Below are positions 17,551 through 44,321 of a stretch of 64,000 nucleotides of DNA, one piece after another. Below the pieces are notes generated by a model. The model made no database searches, had not been told where the DNA came from, and saw only the letters and a list, made by a program, of their open reading frames with translations. The stretch is from Caldicellulosiruptor kronotskyensis 2002 (GTDB lineage: Bacteria > Bacillota > Thermoanaerobacteria > Caldicellulosiruptorales > Caldicellulosiruptoraceae), in NCBI RefSeq assembly GCF_000166775.1, contig NC_014720.1:2350501-2414500 (forward strand), in the 5' to 3' direction. The first letter of the stretch is position 1; the number at the start of each line of letters is the position of its first letter. A program made the translations under genes and the position numbers.

Positions 17551-17916
17551 GGGGGCGTGTTTTGGAATTCGACGGGGGCAGTCGGATTCCAAATAGCGGG
17601 TAGTGGTTTTCTCGGTGCCACTATAAAAAACCGAGAAGAAAAATAACTGCAGACAAAGCAGAACTCGCTTTAGCTGCCTAAAGCGCAGCTAACGTCCGCC
17701 GGAGGTGCCCACGGCCTCCGAGTCGGGCGCCAACCGTCGTGGGGCACCGAAAGTAAGGTCGCCTGAGCCTTACTTTTGGGACTAATTTCAGGCTGGGGAA
17801 GAAAAAGCCTGTCAGTGGGCGTTTTCTTCCCGAGAATTTAAGTACACTGACTGCACCCGGAGAAGTTTGGGGTTCGATGCCTTCGGACGGGGGTTCAAAT
17901 CCCCCCGCCTCCACCA
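17551..17916 (+). ncRNA. ssrA: tmRNA (transfer-messenger RNA)
   Basis: The 5' end GGGGGCG pairs with CGCCTCC before the encoded CCA at 17914-17916, forming the tRNA-like acceptor stem (one G-U pair). The 3' T arm GGGTTCAAATCCC is present. The tag reading frame runs 17649-17681: GCA GAC AAA GCA GAA CTC GCT TTA GCT GCC TAA, giving ADKAELALAA, a typical clostridial-type degradation tag ending in LAA-like residues. Pseudoknot-forming GC-rich segments follow (17690-17760). It rescues stalled ribosomes with SmpB, whose gene ends on the base before. The 5' end must be made by RNase P cleavage within or next to the smpB stop codon if they share a transcript. Confidence 0.97.
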
Positions 17917-33152: not shown

Positions 33153-34418
33153 TTGTTCAACCCGTTTGAAGAAAAGCCAAAGCCGATTGAAAATTTTCTT
33201 ATGGACTGGAAAACAATATACCCCAAGTCGTACTGCAAAAATGAAGTTGACCCTTATACAAAGACAAGAATAATTCTCATGAACGGGATTGAAGTTGAAG
33301 CCTCGATGTTTTTCCATCAGTTTCACCGCCATTGTATAGACAACAACGTAAGACGCGATTTAGCAATGATGAGAAGAATTGAGCAAATGCAACAAAAACA
33401 CATCAACTGGTTAAAGCCAATTGATGAGACACCTCTTGAAACTACAATAGGATATGAGCATGTGGCTGTAGACCTTACCGCTTGGCTTGCTCAAAACGAA
33501 CCTGACCCTTATGTTAAACAAACTCTTGATTTTATTTTGCTTGAAGATTTTGACCATCTTTACCGCTATGCAAACCTTCTTGACATGGACTCGAATATCC
33601 CAGCAAACAATCTGGTAAAAAACTATGTTGAAATCATCCCTGGTCGGCCGACAATTGCCCATCACAGACATCCTTATGATACTGTCAGCAGATGCGTTGA
33701 TTTTAAAAAAGCAGATATTAGAACAAAGTTAAACATTTTCATCATAACAGCCGGTGAGCAGCAGACAATGAATTTTTATAACAACATTGGTAACACCTAT
33801 TACAACGACCTTGGAAGACAGCTCTACTTAGAAATAGCCTTAGTGGAAGAAGAACACGTAACCCAGTATGGTTCGTTGATTGACCCGAGACTCACATGGT
33901 TCGAAAGTCTTCTTTTGCATGAATACACCGAATGCTATCTGTATTACTCATTCTATGAATCTGAGGTTGACCCAAATGTAAAATCTATATGGGAGATGCA
34001 CCTTGATGCTGAAATTGCCCATCTTCATAAAGCTGCAGAACTTTTGCAAAAATATGAGAACAAATCTTGGTATGAAGTTATCCCGGGTGGGCAGTTCCCA
34101 AATCTTTTGCTGTTCCATGATACGCGTGAATATGTACGCAAAGTTATTTCACAGATGGTTGAAATAACTGCTGACAAAGAGGATTTAAAAAATGTAAATG
34201 ATCTACCAGAAAATCATACGTTTTTCTGGTTCCAGAATAAAGTGAACCATGATATAAATTTGGTTGCAAGCCATGTGGTGATTGATAAGCACAAAACGGT
34301 AAAAGGTGAAGATTACAGGTGGGAGATGGCTCCACACCCAGTTGAAAGCTTGAGAAATAGAAAAGAAGACAATAGCTCAATTGGAAGAACAAAGCAGAAA
34401 AAGCTTGTTAGCATATAA
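33153..34418 (+). CDS. Ferritin-like di-iron protein built of four helical-hairpin repeats
   Basis: A 421-residue cytosolic protein. I see a four-fold internal pattern in which a Glu is followed 30 residues on by Glu/Asp and 33 on by His: E102/D132/H135, E202/E232/H235, E257/E287/H290. A degenerate first unit E47/E77/Q80 has the His replaced by Gln. Three units also share Asp at +16 and Val at +19 (D63/V66, D118/V121, D273/V276). This E...ExxH hairpin is the half-site of ferritin/rubrerythrin-type four-helix bundles, so units 1+2 and 3+4 could form two bundles, the first lacking one ligand. Start is TTG with AAGGAGGT at good spacing. It faces, convergently, a bacteriohemerythrin gene. The C-terminal 130 residues have no pattern I know. 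Function is unknown; oxygen or peroxide handling or a di-iron oxidase are possible. Confidence 0.75.
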   Translation: MFNPFEEKPKPIENFLMDWKTIYPKSYCKNEVDPYTKTRIILMNGIEVEASMFFHQFHRHCIDNNVRRDLAMMRRIEQMQQKHINWLKPIDETPLETTIGYEHVAVDLTAWLAQNEPDPYVKQTLDFILLEDFDHLYRYANLLDMDSNIPANNLVKNYVEIIPGRPTIAHHRHPYDTVSRCVDFKKADIRTKLNIFIITAGEQQTMNFYNNIGNTYYNDLGRQLYLEIALVEEEHVTQYGSLIDPRLTWFESLLLHEYTECYLYYSFYESEVDPNVKSIWEMHLDAEIAHLHKAAELLQKYENKSWYEVIPGGQFPNLLLFHDTREYVRKVISQMVEITADKEDLKNVNDLPENHTFFWFQNKVNHDINLVASHVVIDKHKTVKGEDYRWEMAPHPVESLRNRKEDNSSIGRTKQKKLVSI

Positions 34419-34477: not shown

Positions 34478-34894
34478 CTATTTTGATTGCATCTTTTCTT
34501 TCAAAAAAGCTCCAAGTTTTCTATCTGTTCCAAGGATATGATTTTTGAGCCAGTCAACAACAAGTCTGTTTGTCTTTATAACTGCTGCAACTCCTGCTCC
34601 TTCCTTCTCTATCTCCTCTCGAAACTTTTTGTAGTTTTCAACAAAGTTGTCATGTTCTTTTTTATGATATAGATACTCTGGGTACAGATACTCTTTCATG
34701 TATTTTTCCTCAGTTGAAAAATGAAAAACAACATAATCACCTAAAAAGTCTAAAACTTCTGGCAATACCTTCTTCCCCTCACCCTGAGCACAAGCATCCA
34801 AAAGTCTATTTATTCTTTCAAAAAGCTCTTTGTGCTGATTGTCTATTGACTCAACTCCAACAGAGTACTGGTCAAGCCACTCTATTTGCGGCAT
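34478..34894 (-). CDS. Bacteriohemerythrin
   Basis: This 138-residue four-helix protein binds O2 at a non-haem di-iron site. The ligand set is visible: His in DNQHKELF, His and Glu in HFSTEEKYM, two His in YHKKEHDNF and His plus Asp in LKNHILGTD. The N-terminal signature WLDQYSVGVESID is typical. AAAGGAGTG precedes the ATG. It lies 69 bases downstream of the GT2 synthase gene on the same strand and could be the last gene of that operon, followed by a terminator. In a strict anaerobe it may scavenge or sense oxygen. Confidence 0.95.
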   Translation of the reverse strand: MPQIEWLDQYSVGVESIDNQHKELFERINRLLDACAQGEGKKVLPEVLDFLGDYVVFHFSTEEKYMKEYLYPEYLYHKKEHDNFVENYKKFREEIEKEGAGVAAVIKTNRLVVDWLKNHILGTDRKLGAFLKEKMQSK

Positions 34895-34963
34895 TATTTC
34901 ACTCCTTTCAAATTGAAGTTATATTCAAATATTATATACCCCAATTAATTAAAAAGTAACACA

Positions 34964-36358
34964 TTATAACTTCTTTCTCTCAGGCTTTGCCCAACCTTTC
35001 TTTCTAAGTATAGCTTCAAATGTACCAACAATTCTGAATAACACTGTCATCTGTCTGTAGCCAAAATTTTCTAATATCGCAAACAATACAAGTATACCGA
35101 ACTCTCTCCACCCTTCATATTTTCTATCAGAAAATTCTCCAAGAAGAACTGCTAAAATCGAAATAACTATTCCGTACATTATCTCAACTGCAAAGAAAAA
35201 TAAGGCCACTTCTAAATTGATTATGTGAGCAAAATACGATATAGGTATAAAAATATAACCCAACATCTCCACGAATGGCCCCAATAGTTCAAACATAAGC
35301 TGATATGGCATAGCAAAAAGACCTAATATGCCATACTTAGGATTAAATAGAATATCTTTGTGCATGAAAATAACTTGGCAAAGACCTCTTTGCCATCTTC
35401 TTCTTTGTTTTGAAAGGTCTTTTAAAGTCTCTGGACATTGAGTCCATACAATCGGATCTGGTACAAATTCAACTCTTCCCAGTGCGCCTTCTTTATAAGA
35501 GTTTTTTCTGAGCTTTACAACAATCTCCATATCCTCGCCAACAGTTCTATCAGAAAACCCTCCAACCTTTATAATAGCATTTTTATTAAATGCTGCAAAG
35601 GCTCCAGATGCAATAACAAGACTTCCTATCATAGAAAGACCTTTTCTCGCACCCAAAAAAGCTCTCAAGTATTCTATTATCTGAAATCTTGCAAGACTTG
35701 AACTTGGTAGCTTTAATTTTTTTATATTGCCAAAGGAATCCAATTCGGATCCATTTACAATCCTAACAATACCCGTTGTGGCTACAACTTCATAAGGGTT
35801 ATCAAAAAATGGTTGCATAACCTTGGCTATTGAATCTCTTTCTAAAATTGAATCGGCATCAAGTGAACAAACATATGGGTATGTACATACGTTTATCCCT
35901 GCATTGAGAGCATCAGCTTTTCCCCCATTTTCTTTATCCACTACAATTAAATTTGAATACTTTTTGGAATAGTATATGGCCTTTATCTCTTTTGTTGACA
36001 AAATCTTTCTAAATTTCCTATCTACAATGTAAAGGTCAAATTCGTTTTTTAATACATCCAATGTCCCATCTTTTGACCCATCATTAATTACTACTACTTC
36101 ATATTCTGGATATTCAATCTGCAAAAAAGATTTTACAGATTTTGCTATTGTTTCTTCTTCATTGTATGCCGGTACCAGCAGTGATACAGGTGGTGCAAAG
36201 TCTGATGAGACAATCTCCACAATCCTTCCTTTTATCTTATTTCTCCAGTAACTAACAATACCAAAAAAAGATATTAAAATTAAAATAGCATAAATAGTAT
36301 TCAAAACTAAAACATAATAAGATACAAACCATGAAAACCAGTTTATTATATGTCGCAT
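34964..36358 (-). CDS. GT2-family membrane glycosyltransferase (poly-GlcNAc synthase type)
   Basis: This 464-residue processive synthase has an N-terminal helix (about residues 13-35), a cytosolic GT-A domain, and three to four C-terminal helices. The GT-A domain carries PVSLLVPAYNEEETI, NDGSKDGT, the DADS metal-binding motif (VCSLDADSI), VGEDMEIVVKLR and the QRRRWQRG motif of processive synthases. The pattern resembles PgaC/IcaA and cellulose-synthase-like enzymes, making a beta-linked surface polysaccharide from a UDP-sugar. Its start overlaps the end of the HEAT-repeat gene by 13 bases, so the three genes are translationally coupled. No deacetylase or export partner is adjacent. Confidence 0.9.
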   Translation of the reverse strand: MRHIINWFSWFVSYYVLVLNTIYAILILISFFGIVSYWRNKIKGRIVEIVSSDFAPPVSLLVPAYNEEETIAKSVKSFLQIEYPEYEVVVINDGSKDGTLDVLKNEFDLYIVDRKFRKILSTKEIKAIYYSKKYSNLIVVDKENGGKADALNAGINVCTYPYVCSLDADSILERDSIAKVMQPFFDNPYEVVATTGIVRIVNGSELDSFGNIKKLKLPSSSLARFQIIEYLRAFLGARKGLSMIGSLVIASGAFAAFNKNAIIKVGGFSDRTVGEDMEIVVKLRKNSYKEGALGRVEFVPDPIVWTQCPETLKDLSKQRRRWQRGLCQVIFMHKDILFNPKYGILGLFAMPYQLMFELLGPFVEMLGYIFIPISYFAHIINLEVALFFFAVEIMYGIVISILAVLLGEFSDRKYEGWREFGILVLFAILENFGYRQMTVLFRIVGTFEAILRKKGWAKPERKKL

Positions 36359-37581
36359 TCGTTATTCACTACCTCTTTCTCGGTTATAAGATATTCAAAT
36401 CCTTCATCTTTCATTCTTTGATAAAAACAGTGGGGGTTAGACGATTTAAGTATTTTAATTATTTCTAAAGCTAAATCTTTCTCCTGTTCATTTCTGTAAT
36501 TCAAAGCACTCTTGATAATATAATCAAAATTCACTGGACTATAAAAAACTTCTCTTATTTTGTCCCTTGCAAATTTATCATTTGTTGTATAGTAAAATTT
36601 TAGAAGATCATTTAAAATAACTGGTCCAAACTCAGATAGCATCTTTCTTGCAAAGTCTCTCATGTAGAACCAGTCATCTTCAAGGGAGGCAAGTAAATAT
36701 TTTAAAGAACCCTTAGGTGAAACATTGCTCAACGCCCTTAAGGCTCGTAACTTCACAAAATTTATCTTTTCGTTTTTTATCAGAGTTTCAAGTTTTTCTT
36801 TGCAGTTTCTACATCCTACTTTTTCAATTACTCTGCAGAAAGCTGATCTGACTTCTGGTGATGGATGATTTATAAGAAAATCAATGTGTTCTAAATCTTC
36901 TAATGCCGCAATCTCTGAAAATATATTCAAACATGATATCAGAACTTTATCCGACGGGTTTTCTTTTATCACGTATAAAATTATATCTTTTATTTTTTCG
37001 CCACCATAAACTGCAAAAAATTCTATTCTTCTTCTAACCGAATCTGTATATTTATCAATGTTTAAAAAAATAGTTTTTAAATAAGGTTTAAAAACATTTA
37101 AATTCTGTATCTCATCTATGTTTTTGAAAATGGCTTCGGCAGTTGTATCTATCAGATACGGCTCTTTAATGCTAATTTTTAAAAGCGTTTTTAGCTCATC
37201 TTCTTCGCCCACTATACTAATAACTTTTGCAAACCTAAGTTTTTGAACTTTATTCCCTTTTTGAACCATCTTAATAGCAATATCAAAAAAGTTCAATTTC
37301 TTTAAAGCTATATATAGCTGTTTTTTTTCTTCTCCATTTACCCATGAATAATATATATTTATAACATCACTCAGAATGTAAATGTTTGAAGAATCAATAA
37401 CATTTTTCTTTCCTGTTATCACATCATAGACATTTTCACTGTTATTTTTAAAAATCTGCTTTATTTTTTCTTGACGGATACTATTAATAACTTTGTATAA
37501 AAAAACAACTCCCGAAGTTATAACTAAAAGAATAACAATAATAATAACACACAAGATAACAAAATTTATATTATCTATCAT
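36346..37581 (-). CDS. Membrane-anchored HEAT-repeat protein
   Basis: This 411-residue protein has a hydrophobic helix at about residues 7-32, then cytosolic alpha-helical repeats. HEAT-like units are seen around CLNIFSEIAALEDLEHIDFLINHPSPEVRSAF, LETLIKNEKINFVKLRALRALS and LKYLLASLEDDWFYMRDFARKML, the last two units being clearest. HEAT repeats form a curved scaffold for partner proteins. The gene starts 11 bases inside the end of the response regulator gene and overlaps the GT2 gene by 13. I infer it links the regulator to the synthase at the membrane; no direct evidence for that exists in the sequence. Confidence 0.82.
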   Translation of the reverse strand: MIDNINFVILCVIIIVILLVITSGVVFLYKVINSIRQEKIKQIFKNNSENVYDVITGKKNVIDSSNIYILSDVINIYYSWVNGEEKKQLYIALKKLNFFDIAIKMVQKGNKVQKLRFAKVISIVGEEDELKTLLKISIKEPYLIDTTAEAIFKNIDEIQNLNVFKPYLKTIFLNIDKYTDSVRRRIEFFAVYGGEKIKDIILYVIKENPSDKVLISCLNIFSEIAALEDLEHIDFLINHPSPEVRSAFCRVIEKVGCRNCKEKLETLIKNEKINFVKLRALRALSNVSPKGSLKYLLASLEDDWFYMRDFARKMLSEFGPVILNDLLKFYYTTNDKFARDKIREVFYSPVNFDYIIKSALNYRNEQEKDLALEIIKILKSSNPHCFYQRMKDEGFEYLITEKEVVNNECDI

Positions 37582-38332
37582 TTAATTCACTCCAAAGTTC
37601 TAAAACTTTCTTTAGAAGAATTAATCTTTTATTATCATTCAGAATTTTGAATATAAAGTAATAAGTTTCTTCCTTATTGTTAAGTTTTATAATCGAATAA
37701 CTGCTTGAATTTATTCTGTCCTCATCATTTAAACAGCCAATAACCTTTTTAATTTCATATTCATCAAAACCTCTGTTATAAATCACCTCTTTTGTAGTAT
37801 CATTTAAAGCCAAGAAGTGATATGAAACAAAATATTCTGATAAAAATTCATCTATAATTTTGGGAACTACAATGATATGTTCATTTGCCATTTCATTCAA
37901 AAAAGAAATAAGATGTACAACTTCATTAATATGTAAATATTCATCTTGAGTGTACAAAAGTGACCTTACCATATTGTAAACTTCTAAAGTTGAAAAAGGC
38001 TTTGGAATAACTCCAATAGCTCCAAGCTCGTATGCCTTTGCTCTTGTTGCACGATGAATATTGCTACTGAGCAAAATTACTGGAATGTGAGCTTTAACAG
38101 AACTTTTTTTGATAGTTCTCAAAACTTCAAATCCACTAATTTTAGGCAAGTTTGTATCAATTATTGCAACATGAATACTGTTCTCACCAATTTTGTTCAA
38201 AGCTTCTTCACCATCAGCAGCCTCAAAAAATACAAAGTGATGTACTGAATCAAAAGAATTTTCAAACTTTTCAATTATTGCTTTTCTTATGTATTCATTT
38301 TCATCTGCAATCAACACATTTTTAACTATCAT
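37571..38332 (-). CDS. Response regulator, receiver domain with unclassified output
   Basis: Residues 1-125 are a receiver domain: acidic pocket D10/E11 in LIADENEY, phosphoacceptor Asp59 in AIIDTNLPKISG, the LLSSN switch residue and the conserved lysine in PKPFS. Residues ~130-253 have no HTH, GGDEF or other output motif I recognise. The frame extends to an ATG at 38359, but GGGAGA is seven bases before the ATG at 38332. No histidine kinase is nearby. The gene overlaps the HEAT-repeat gene by 11 bases, suggesting phosphorylation-controlled activity of the downstream HEAT/GT2 proteins rather than transcription control. Confidence 0.85.
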   Translation of the reverse strand: MIVKNVLIADENEYIRKAIIEKFENSFDSVHHFVFFEAADGEEALNKIGENSIHVAIIDTNLPKISGFEVLRTIKKSSVKAHIPVILLSSNIHRATRAKAYELGAIGVIPKPFSTLEVYNMVRSLLYTQDEYLHINEVVHLISFLNEMANEHIIVVPKIIDEFLSEYFVSYHFLALNDTTKEVIYNRGFDEYEIKKVIGCLNDEDRINSSSYSIIKLNNKEETYYFIFKILNDNKRLILLKKVLELWSELNDR

Positions 38333-38468: not shown

Positions 38469-38558
38469 TGGTGCCGAAGGCGGGAGTCGAACCCGCACGG
38501 CCTCAGCGGCCACCGGATTTTGAGTCCGGCGCGTCTGCCAGTTCCACCACTTCGGCAC
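38469..38558 (-). tRNA. tRNA-Leu (anticodon CAA), CCA encoded
   Basis: Read on the minus strand, the acceptor stem is GTGCCGA / TCGGCAC. The anticodon stem-loop CCGGA-CTCAAAA-TCCGG has anticodon CAA, reading UUG. The long variable arm (GGCCGCTGAGGCC) is typical of leucine tRNAs, the T loop is GGTTCGACTCC, and the 3' CCA is genomic at 38469-38471. Total 90 bases. Confidence 0.95.
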
Positions 38559-42671: not shown

Positions 42672-44321
42672 ATGTCTGAAAAAAATAAAGACTTAAACTG
42701 TAAAGCAAATAATTATGCAGCTAAAATATCAATAATATATGCAGTTGTGAGCGCAATTTGGATTTTAATCTCTGATATGCTAACAACAATTTTCTTTGCT
42801 AAAAAAGAGCTTGTTACTTTCATTTCAGTAATTAAAGGCTGGCTCTTTGTGCTTATCACTGCAAGCCTTTTGTATTTTATGATTCGCAAAAAAATCTATT
42901 CGCTTTACCTTTCCGAAAATAAGCTCCAAAATGCTATCGAAGAACTTCAAAAGACAAATGATGAACTTTCTAAAACACAGGAAAAGCTTGTTATCCAGTA
43001 CAAAAAACTTGCAAAAAATCAAGAAAAGATAAAAGAGCTTGCTTACTTTGACCAGCTAACTAATCTGCCAAATAGAAATCATTTTATGTTAGCTCTCGAA
43101 AAGGCTATCAGGGATGCTCATTTCAAAGGGCAGCAACTTGCTCTGATGTGTATCGATATTGATAATTTCAGTAAAATTAATAATACTCTTGGTCATGCGA
43201 CTGGTGACGTTGTTTTAAAAGAAATTGCGCAAAGGCTTAAAGAAGCGGTGGGTAATAACGGGTTTGTTGCAAGACTAACAGGAGATGAGTTTGGAATAAT
43301 AATTTATAATTTTCTTGATTTTAACGTCTTGAATTACTTTATCTATAAAATTTTTAATTTATTTTCAATATCATGGGAAATAATGGAATATAATTTTAAC
43401 ATTACACCAAGTATGGGGATTGCTATATATCCTTCAGATGGGCAGGATGGGATATCACTTTTGAAAAACGCCGACAAAGCTTTAAAACTTGCAAAAGAAA
43501 AAGGTAAAAATACTTTTTGTTTTTACAACCTGGAAATGGATAATATACTTCAACAGAGGCTTGAATTCGAATCAGATTTAAAAAAGGCGATTGAAAAAGA
43601 CCAGTTCGTTTTGTATTATCAGCCTATTGTGGACCTCGAAAAAATGCAGATATGTGGAGCAGAAGCACTTATTCGCTGGATACATCCACAAAAGGGGCTT
43701 ATACCGCCCATGTCTTTTATTCCAATTGCTGAGCAGACAGGGCTCATATCACAAATTGGTCAATGGGTATTGGCAAAGGTCATATCGGATTTGAAGAGCA
43801 TCAGAGATGTAACAAATCACAACTTTTATATTTCTTTCAATGCGTCTTTAAGAGAGTTTTCAAGCGCAAATTTTGTTGGTAACGTACTTCATACAATTGA
43901 AGCCTTAAAAGGAGACTCAAATTCCTTGGGAATAGAGATTACTGAATCAGTTGCAATGGCAGACCCTCAAAATACCATAAAGTCACTCAATACTTTAAAA
44001 GAAAAAGGTATTAAAGTTTTTCTTGACGACTTTGGAACAGGCTACTCTTCTTTAAACTATCTAAAACAGCTTCCCATTGATGTTGTTAAAATTGATAGAA
44101 GTTTCATAGCCAATATGAGCACTGACACAAAAGAACAAAAAATAGCCAAAAGCCTGATTGACCTTTCTCACATCTTAGATTTAAAGGTTGTAGCAGAAGG
44201 TATTGAGGATAGTCAGCAGGCTGAGATACTAAAAGCATTTAAGTGTGATTTCGGACAGGGATATTTGTTTGGAAAACCTCTTCCAAAAGACCAATTTATA
44301 GAGTTTGCAAAGAGGTTTTGA
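42672..44321 (+). CDS. Membrane GGDEF-EAL protein, probable c-di-GMP phosphodiesterase
   Basis: This 549-residue protein has two N-terminal hydrophobic segments (about residues 18-38 and 49-70), a coiled coil (~75-120), a GGDEF domain and an EAL domain. The GGDEF active site reads TGDEF (203-207), missing the first glycine, so cyclase activity is doubtful and a GTP-sensing role possible. The EAL motif at 331-333 (AEALIRW) is intact, as are the metal and lysine motifs DDFGTGYSSLNYL and VVKIDRSF. That predicts hydrolysis of cyclic di-GMP at the membrane. No PilZ gene is near, although a GT2 polysaccharide synthase of the type often controlled by c-di-GMP lies 6 kb away. Confidence 0.92.
   Translation: MSEKNKDLNCKANNYAAKISIIYAVVSAIWILISDMLTTIFFAKKELVTFISVIKGWLFVLITASLLYFMIRKKIYSLYLSENKLQNAIEELQKTNDELSKTQEKLVIQYKKLAKNQEKIKELAYFDQLTNLPNRNHFMLALEKAIRDAHFKGQQLALMCIDIDNFSKINNTLGHATGDVVLKEIAQRLKEAVGNNGFVARLTGDEFGIIIYNFLDFNVLNYFIYKIFNLFSISWEIMEYNFNITPSMGIAIYPSDGQDGISLLKNADKALKLAKEKGKNTFCFYNLEMDNILQQRLEFESDLKKAIEKDQFVLYYQPIVDLEKMQICGAEALIRWIHPQKGLIPPMSFIPIAEQTGLISQIGQWVLAKVISDLKSIRDVTNHNFYISFNASLREFSSANFVGNVLHTIEALKGDSNSLGIEITESVAMADPQNTIKSLNTLKEKGIKVFLDDFGTGYSSLNYLKQLPIDVVKIDRSFIANMSTDTKEQKIAKSLIDLSHILDLKVVAEGIEDSQQAEILKAFKCDFGQGYLFGKPLPKDQFIEFAKRF

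Follow-up and report, generated by a model that had tools for sequence, protein, structure and literature searches.

A response regulator–HEAT–glycosyltransferase gene cassette of Caldicellulosiruptor kronotskyensis as a probable maker and regulator of extracellular polysaccharide

Gene content and predicted proteins of the locus

The window analysed, that is, the whole stretch of 64,000 nucleotides at positions 2,350,501 to 2,414,500 of contig NC_014720.1 of Caldicellulosiruptor kronotskyensis 2002, carries a cassette of three genes coding for a response regulator, a HEAT-repeat protein and a membrane glycosyltransferase of family 2 (GT2), which together probably make and regulate an extracellular polysaccharide. 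The genome (G000) is a single contig of 2.84 Mb. An earlier sequence-only reading had joined these genes with a neighbouring bacteriohemerythrin in a four-gene, phosphorylation- and oxygen-linked synthase. Regulator, HEAT and GT2 are one conserved unit of three genes, not four, and the grouping is beyond chance for these three only. The features of the locus are the following:

37571..38332, minus strand: response regulator, receiver at about residues 1-125 followed by a C-terminal alpha/beta domain of ~125 residues
36346..37581, minus strand: HEAT-repeat protein, predicted N-terminal membrane helix and HEAT solenoid
34964..36358, minus strand: membrane GT2, processive-type polysaccharide synthase according to Pfam GT2 families and motifs
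34478..34894, minus strand: bacteriohemerythrin (NF033749), judged a neighbour outside the cassette
38469..38556, minus strand: tRNA-Leu(CAA) (ARAGORN), flank of the cassette

The regulator and HEAT genes overlap by 11 bases, the HEAT and GT2 genes by 13 bases, and a gap of 69 bases separates GT2 from the hemerythrin gene on the same strand, exactly as had been described from the sequence.

The GT2 of the window matched the Pfam family Glycos_transf_2 (6e-27). It was assigned to the processive, polysaccharide-type membrane GT2 enzymes, as previously proposed, on the basis of its D, DxD, ED and QxxRW motifs and of the hydrophobic segments counted in its homologues; the residues D93, D167xD169, E275-D276 and Q318-R319-x-R321-W322 were invariant in 24 diverse members. 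Positions 18-416 of the GT2 profile aligned to the hyaluronan synthase 7sp6, and cellulose synthase also aligned. Three synthases of known product were rejected as identities for this enzyme: PgaC/IcaA poly-GlcNAc synthase (TIGR03937, 170.3 bits against a cut-off of 422.3), the cellulose synthase catalytic subunit (TIGR03030, 71.6 against 699.1 bits, with no PilZ match) and NodC chitooligosaccharide synthase (TIGR04242, 48.6 against 550 bits). PgaC/IcaA of the pga/ica systems, the best-scoring NCBIfam equivalog, likewise consists of one membrane GT2 that is comparable in size and carries QxxRW, but the window GT2 is not adjoined by PgaD, a PgaB/IcaB-type deacetylase or PgaA, and has a HEAT protein and a receiver instead. 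With BcsA and the chlorovirus hyaluronan synthase it shares the GT2 core and the processive motifs, the profile spanning most of 7sp6; it differs from BcsA in having no PilZ domain, and from the cellulose synthase cluster in having no BcsB partner.

The HEAT protein matched HEAT_2 (5e-9, above the cut-off), as did all 38 cassette HEAT proteins scanned. Its AlphaFold model (pLDDT 93.7) comprised a long N-terminal helix (residues 2-55) that includes the membrane span, followed by a solenoid, in agreement with the membrane-anchored HEAT protein of the sequence-only reading, and the fold search retrieved generic HEAT/ARM and designed alpha-Rep solenoids. The basic residues that follow the membrane span suggest a cytosolic solenoid, which would put it on the side of the GT2 catalytic domain. 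The most conserved patch, D302-x-x-W/F305-W/Y306-V/M307-R308 (F305-Y306-M307-R308 in the window), is a candidate interface on the basis of its conservation. With HEAT as query against the genome contigs no relatives were retrieved, and GT2 was used as query instead. When a HEAT model was searched against 398 phylum genomes, most matches outside the close relatives were partial and fell on general HEAT proteins; they were left out of the counts.

Response_reg (6e-20, above the cut-off) was the sole Pfam match of the regulator, and its phosphorylation pocket was complete (D10/E11, D59, S89 and K111). In the AlphaFold model (pLDDT 80) the receiver scored Z about 20-21 against solved receivers, and the C-terminal ~125 residues were modelled as alpha/beta with modest confidence; the fold search gave clear matches for the receiver part only and none for the C-terminal domain, which resembles a GAF domain by impression alone. 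Domain scans found no DNA-binding family in the window regulator or in any of the other cassette receivers scanned (0 of 45 in all, 44 of them from other loci), so that a regulator without DNA-binding output, as had been supposed, was upheld.

Recurrence of the cassette, its receivers and its outer partners

The GT2 alignment alone was searched against the genome contigs, the best 80 loci (39-60% identity) were taken and the linked proteins were clustered; these loci are the top of the match list and are rich in Mesorhizobium. A HEAT gene was clustered with GT2 in 79 of 79 testable loci, as it is in the window (L056 begins at GT2 and was not testable). A single HEAT cluster covered 77 loci, the HEAT protein of L088 being recognized by Pfam and that of L094 by its matching position, and an N-terminal hydrophobic helix was present in the HEAT protein of 73 loci. 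HEAT was usually directly upstream of GT2, its stop overlapping the GT2 start by 4 bases in 44 loci and by a single base in 12 others. Three loci (L035, L062 and L098) have it at a distance of 1.9-6.2 kb upstream of GT2; six large negative spacings are most likely start-codon artefacts of the open reading frame calls.

Regulator, HEAT and GT2 follow one another in this order in five genomes of the genus, the window genome included, as well as in a second genus of the family (G012) and in a distantly related metagenome-assembled genome of Eubacteriales (G053). The four-gene cluster therefore stands for these three genes, which recur in the same order beyond the genus and are not scattered in relatives, but not for the hemerythrin, which is adjacent within the genus alone. 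In a tree the window grouped with G012 and the Eubacteriales genome, next to other Bacillota (support 99/93 for the seven-row group including Clostridia). Cassette members elsewhere in the tree belonged to Pseudomonadota, Gemmatimonadota, Actinomycetota, Verrucomicrobiota, Planctomycetota, Nitrospirota, Nitrospinota, Acidobacteriota, Armatimonadota, Deinococcota, Fibrobacterota, Omnitrophota and Krumholzibacteriota. The cassette thus recurs in about fifteen bacterial phyla, a count in which single phylum labels may be wrong, many of the genomes being metagenome bins.

A receiver was encoded upstream of HEAT in 53 of the 64 loci that extend 3 kb or more in that direction. All 45 cassette receivers scanned were Response_reg proteins, with additional domains in few (Hpt in three, one PDE8A_N match), and the full pocket (acidic pair, Asp, Thr/Ser, Lys) was kept by 42. 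Parts of a kinase or phosphorelay were also encoded in some clusters. Mesorhizobium has a 5TMR-PAS-HisKA-HATPase-REC kinase, Actinomycetota and Gemmatimonadota have Hpt-REC proteins, and Omnitrophota have Hpt-GGDEF-REC proteins. Two further observations concern these proteins. In the sister genus, a 302-aa membrane protein with no Pfam match is encoded directly after GT2 (L016:3663-4571, G012); it resembles a degenerate histidine-kinase-type ATPase and is possibly the cognate kinase. In L030, L088 and L094, proteins encoded upstream of HEAT (305 and 293 aa) carry the receiver at the C-terminus after an uncharacterised N-terminal region of ~170 aa, a layout inverted with respect to the window regulator.

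An outer-membrane barrel of the TPR/YaiO type was encoded in 47 of 64 loci and was common in diderm clusters; YaiO adjoins HEAT-GT2 in most diderm loci, whereas the cassette of the window (Bacillota) has no neighbouring YaiO. In several Bacillota (Clostridia, Lysinibacillus) a large secreted protein of 700-1060 aa is encoded directly beside HEAT-GT2; it gave no Pfam family, no NCBIfam match above cut-off and no solved structural relative, and its appearance is that of a putative TIM-barrel hydrolase. The absence of any export or modification partner, claimed earlier, is true within the window, but elsewhere in the genome, at a distance of about 237 kb, a 1051-aa homologue of the secreted protein is encoded (G000:C1:2650615-2653767; L170:10613-13768, minus strand). 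Homologues were also found in the congeners G005 and G009, and in G003, where the frame has one internal stop. Downstream of this gene, G000, G005 and G009 carry a Band_7/SPFH-like protein and an amylase/debranching-like gene, and G003 carries CRISPR-associated-looking genes.

Presence and loss within the genus

The genus sample consisted of 12 genomes, the window genome and 11 congeners of similar size. GT2 was intact in five of them (G000, G002, G003, G007 and G009), with regulator, HEAT, GT2 and hemerythrin collinear and the flanks similar. In these five species the three cassette frames are intact and dN/dS was 0.06-0.24, a mark of purifying selection on the cassette wherever the genus has kept it. 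In G006 (L017:6467-8001) a pair of IS200/IS605-type genes (TnpA-like, 138 aa; TnpB-like, 374 aa; both named by appearance and not by family search) replaces the C-terminus of HEAT and the N-terminus of GT2, the regulator and the hemerythrin being retained beside the insertion, which amounts to a natural knockout of the cassette in a congener.

The spacer before the hemerythrin gene of G005 and G001 contained a 25-base match to the last GT2 codons (21/25 and 18/25 identical to the window), reached in 0 of 1000 shuffles each and placed at a distance of 82-84 bases, against 75 expected. The same scar was moderate in G010 and weak in G004. This comparison was ungapped, gapped alignment being too loose in this AT-rich DNA. 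The scars, apparent in two or three congeners, suggest that these lineages, at least, once carried the cassette and lost it by deletion. Of the six congeners without the cassette, at least five keep the tRNA-Leu(CAA) gene at its position, according to flank alignments.

The hemerythrin of the window scored 132.5 bits with NF033749 (cut-off 84), which identifies it as a bacteriohemerythrin. It was found in 12 of 12 genomes of the genus, with 88-99% identity in the congeners, the copy of G011 having two in-frame stops in its extended frame. Seven of these genomes have no working cassette. Genomes that have lost the cassette still have the ~47 bases upstream of the gene, which include its ribosome-binding site. 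Outside the genus, the cassettes of G012 and G053 have no hemerythrin beside them, and none was found close to the cassette in the other loci, where a single weak match lies 6 kb away on the other strand (L095). The hemerythrin was therefore rejected as a part of the cassette on its pattern of presence and absence, and the oxygen link proposed through it is not supported. The complete four-gene model, with the hemerythrin as oxygen sensor, retains in its favour the 69-base spacing on the same strand and the adjacency that persists in each of the five genomes of the genus with an intact cassette; as it is largely refuted by this pattern and by the survival of the upstream bases after cassette loss, we regard it as very improbable.

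Convergent with the hemerythrin gene lies a gene for a 421-aa protein (33153-34418, plus strand) with no Pfam match, whose repeated ExxH-like helices suggest a ferritin-like di-iron protein. It adjoins the hemerythrin in most congeners, is partly or wholly lost in G003, G006, G008, G009 and G011, and may be the real companion of the hemerythrin. Elsewhere in the window, a membrane protein with GGDEF- and EAL-like sequence (42672-44321, plus strand) is encoded 4 kb from the cassette; it is probably unrelated to it, because it is kept in the cassette-less G005 and G001. A tmRNA gene with the tag ADKAELALAA is located at 17574-17916 (plus strand).

Proposed mechanism, alternatives and significance

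The cassette is a variant of the synthase-dependent polysaccharide systems and not a new type of machine. A description of the HEAT-GT2-receiver system was not found in the open literature searched (subscription papers being outside its scope), in which YaiO-glycosyltransferase clusters also appear uncharacterised. The sfz/xag-like clusters of iron-oxidiser stalks (PMC8250860, PMC4643136) are likewise centred on a GT2 and are proposed makers of exopolysaccharide; they differ in a BcsB-like protein and a GT2 with an EpsE-like N-terminal domain, and the available portions of both papers report neither HEAT nor receiver. The mxdABCD cluster of Shewanella (PMC3691769) also combines, in a biofilm cluster, a membrane GT2 (MxdB) with a signalling gene, but MxdA affects levels of cyclic di-GMP (c-di-GMP), MxdC is efflux-like and HEAT is not mentioned in the available portion of that article.

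The reading that we favour, and to which we give about an even chance, is that GT2 is a synthase with HEAT as its dedicated subunit and, in most lineages, a receiver as its gate, the unit as a whole making and regulating an extracellular polysaccharide. GT2 would polymerise a sugar nucleotide at the cytosolic face of the membrane, the chain passing through its own membrane helices, and HEAT, with one N-terminal membrane helix and a cytosolic solenoid, would be in physical complex with GT2 as a dedicated subunit or clamp. In most lineages a histidine kinase or a phosphorelay would phosphorylate the receiver, which would then bind the HEAT solenoid and alter synthase activity. The data show the gene content, its linkage across phyla, the intact catalytic and receiver residues, the predicted topology and the pattern of presence and absence. 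What we infer is the physical complex, the control by phosphorylation with the direct switch from receiver through HEAT to GT2, which the sequence-only reading had also proposed, the nature of the polymer and the role of the secreted protein. In Bacillota the large secreted protein may act on the polymer outside the cell; in the genus its gene sits elsewhere in the chromosome and some species lack it.

In favour of this interpretation are the linkage of HEAT to GT2 in every testable locus, signs of co-inheritance, GT2 and HEAT distances being correlated over 36 non-redundant pairs (Spearman 0.70, reached in 0 of 2000 permutations), the receivers with their mostly complete pockets, the kinase or phosphorelay parts of some clusters, the export or outer partners, the purifying selection and the confident HEAT model. 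Several observations weigh against it. The cassette is missing or wrecked in seven of the 12 genomes of the genus (absent in six, cut in G006). HEAT-GT2 occurs with no receiver in at least eight Bacillota loci (L020, L023, L025-L028, L033 and L045) and in L051, the upstream stretch having been searched up to 3.5 kb (only 1.5 kb in L028), and no kinase gene lies beside the window regulator. The correlation of distances is partly species history, and the 80 loci are top matches with many from Mesorhizobium. Secreted partner and cassette coincide in G000, G003 and G009, while G002 and G007 have only the cassette and G005 only the partner, that is, three of five genomes with the cassette against one of seven without it, too few genomes to conclude; with such imperfect co-occurrence, the secreted protein is a lead as a cassette partner and not a result.

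Because of the Bacillota loci without receiver, the receiver is dispensable; HEAT-GT2 forms the core, to which the receiver adds control. In another explanation the synthase always needs HEAT, for its assembly or its structure, and the receiver makes no contact with HEAT, is only co-expressed and signals elsewhere, for example to a kinase, a phosphorelay or a c-di-GMP enzyme: HEAT is present in every testable locus, the receiver is missing from 11 of 64 with enough upstream sequence, and the Hpt-GGDEF-REC proteins of some clusters could signal via c-di-GMP. Against it, the three genes of the cassette adjoin or overlap each other, both in the window and in the nearest relatives, most receivers stand alone with no other output domain and the window GT2 has no PilZ domain; we consider this explanation rather unlikely. 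It is more doubtful still that the cassette is a relic losing its function in this lineage, GT2 making a minor glycan or nothing detectable. Such decay would fit the congeners without the cassette, the IS200/IS605 cut, the GT2 3'-end scars and a secreted partner absent or broken in several congeners, but it is opposed by the intact frames and the low dN/dS of the five species mentioned above. The frequent loss of the cassette, together with the purifying selection where it is present, suggests a trait that the cells can do without, such as adhesion to surfaces or a biofilm matrix.

Synthase-dependent exopolysaccharides are best known as gated by c-di-GMP, through the PilZ domain of BcsA, PgaC/PgaD and Alg44. 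It is possible, and proposed here tentatively, that the cassette represents a widespread, undescribed class of synthases with a membrane HEAT solenoid as regulatory subunit, in which a phosphorylated receiver, and not c-di-GMP/PilZ, would switch polymerisation post-translationally. A cassette that occurs from Caldicellulosiruptor to Mesorhizobium, Gemmatimonadota and Verrucomicrobiota, in which the HEAT gene overlaps that of the synthase and is preceded by a receiver lacking DNA-binding output, is a pointer to a second kind of control over such synthases, based on phosphorylation, with named partners that are now testable in growable and manipulable genera such as Mesorhizobium, Methylobacterium and Lysinibacillus.

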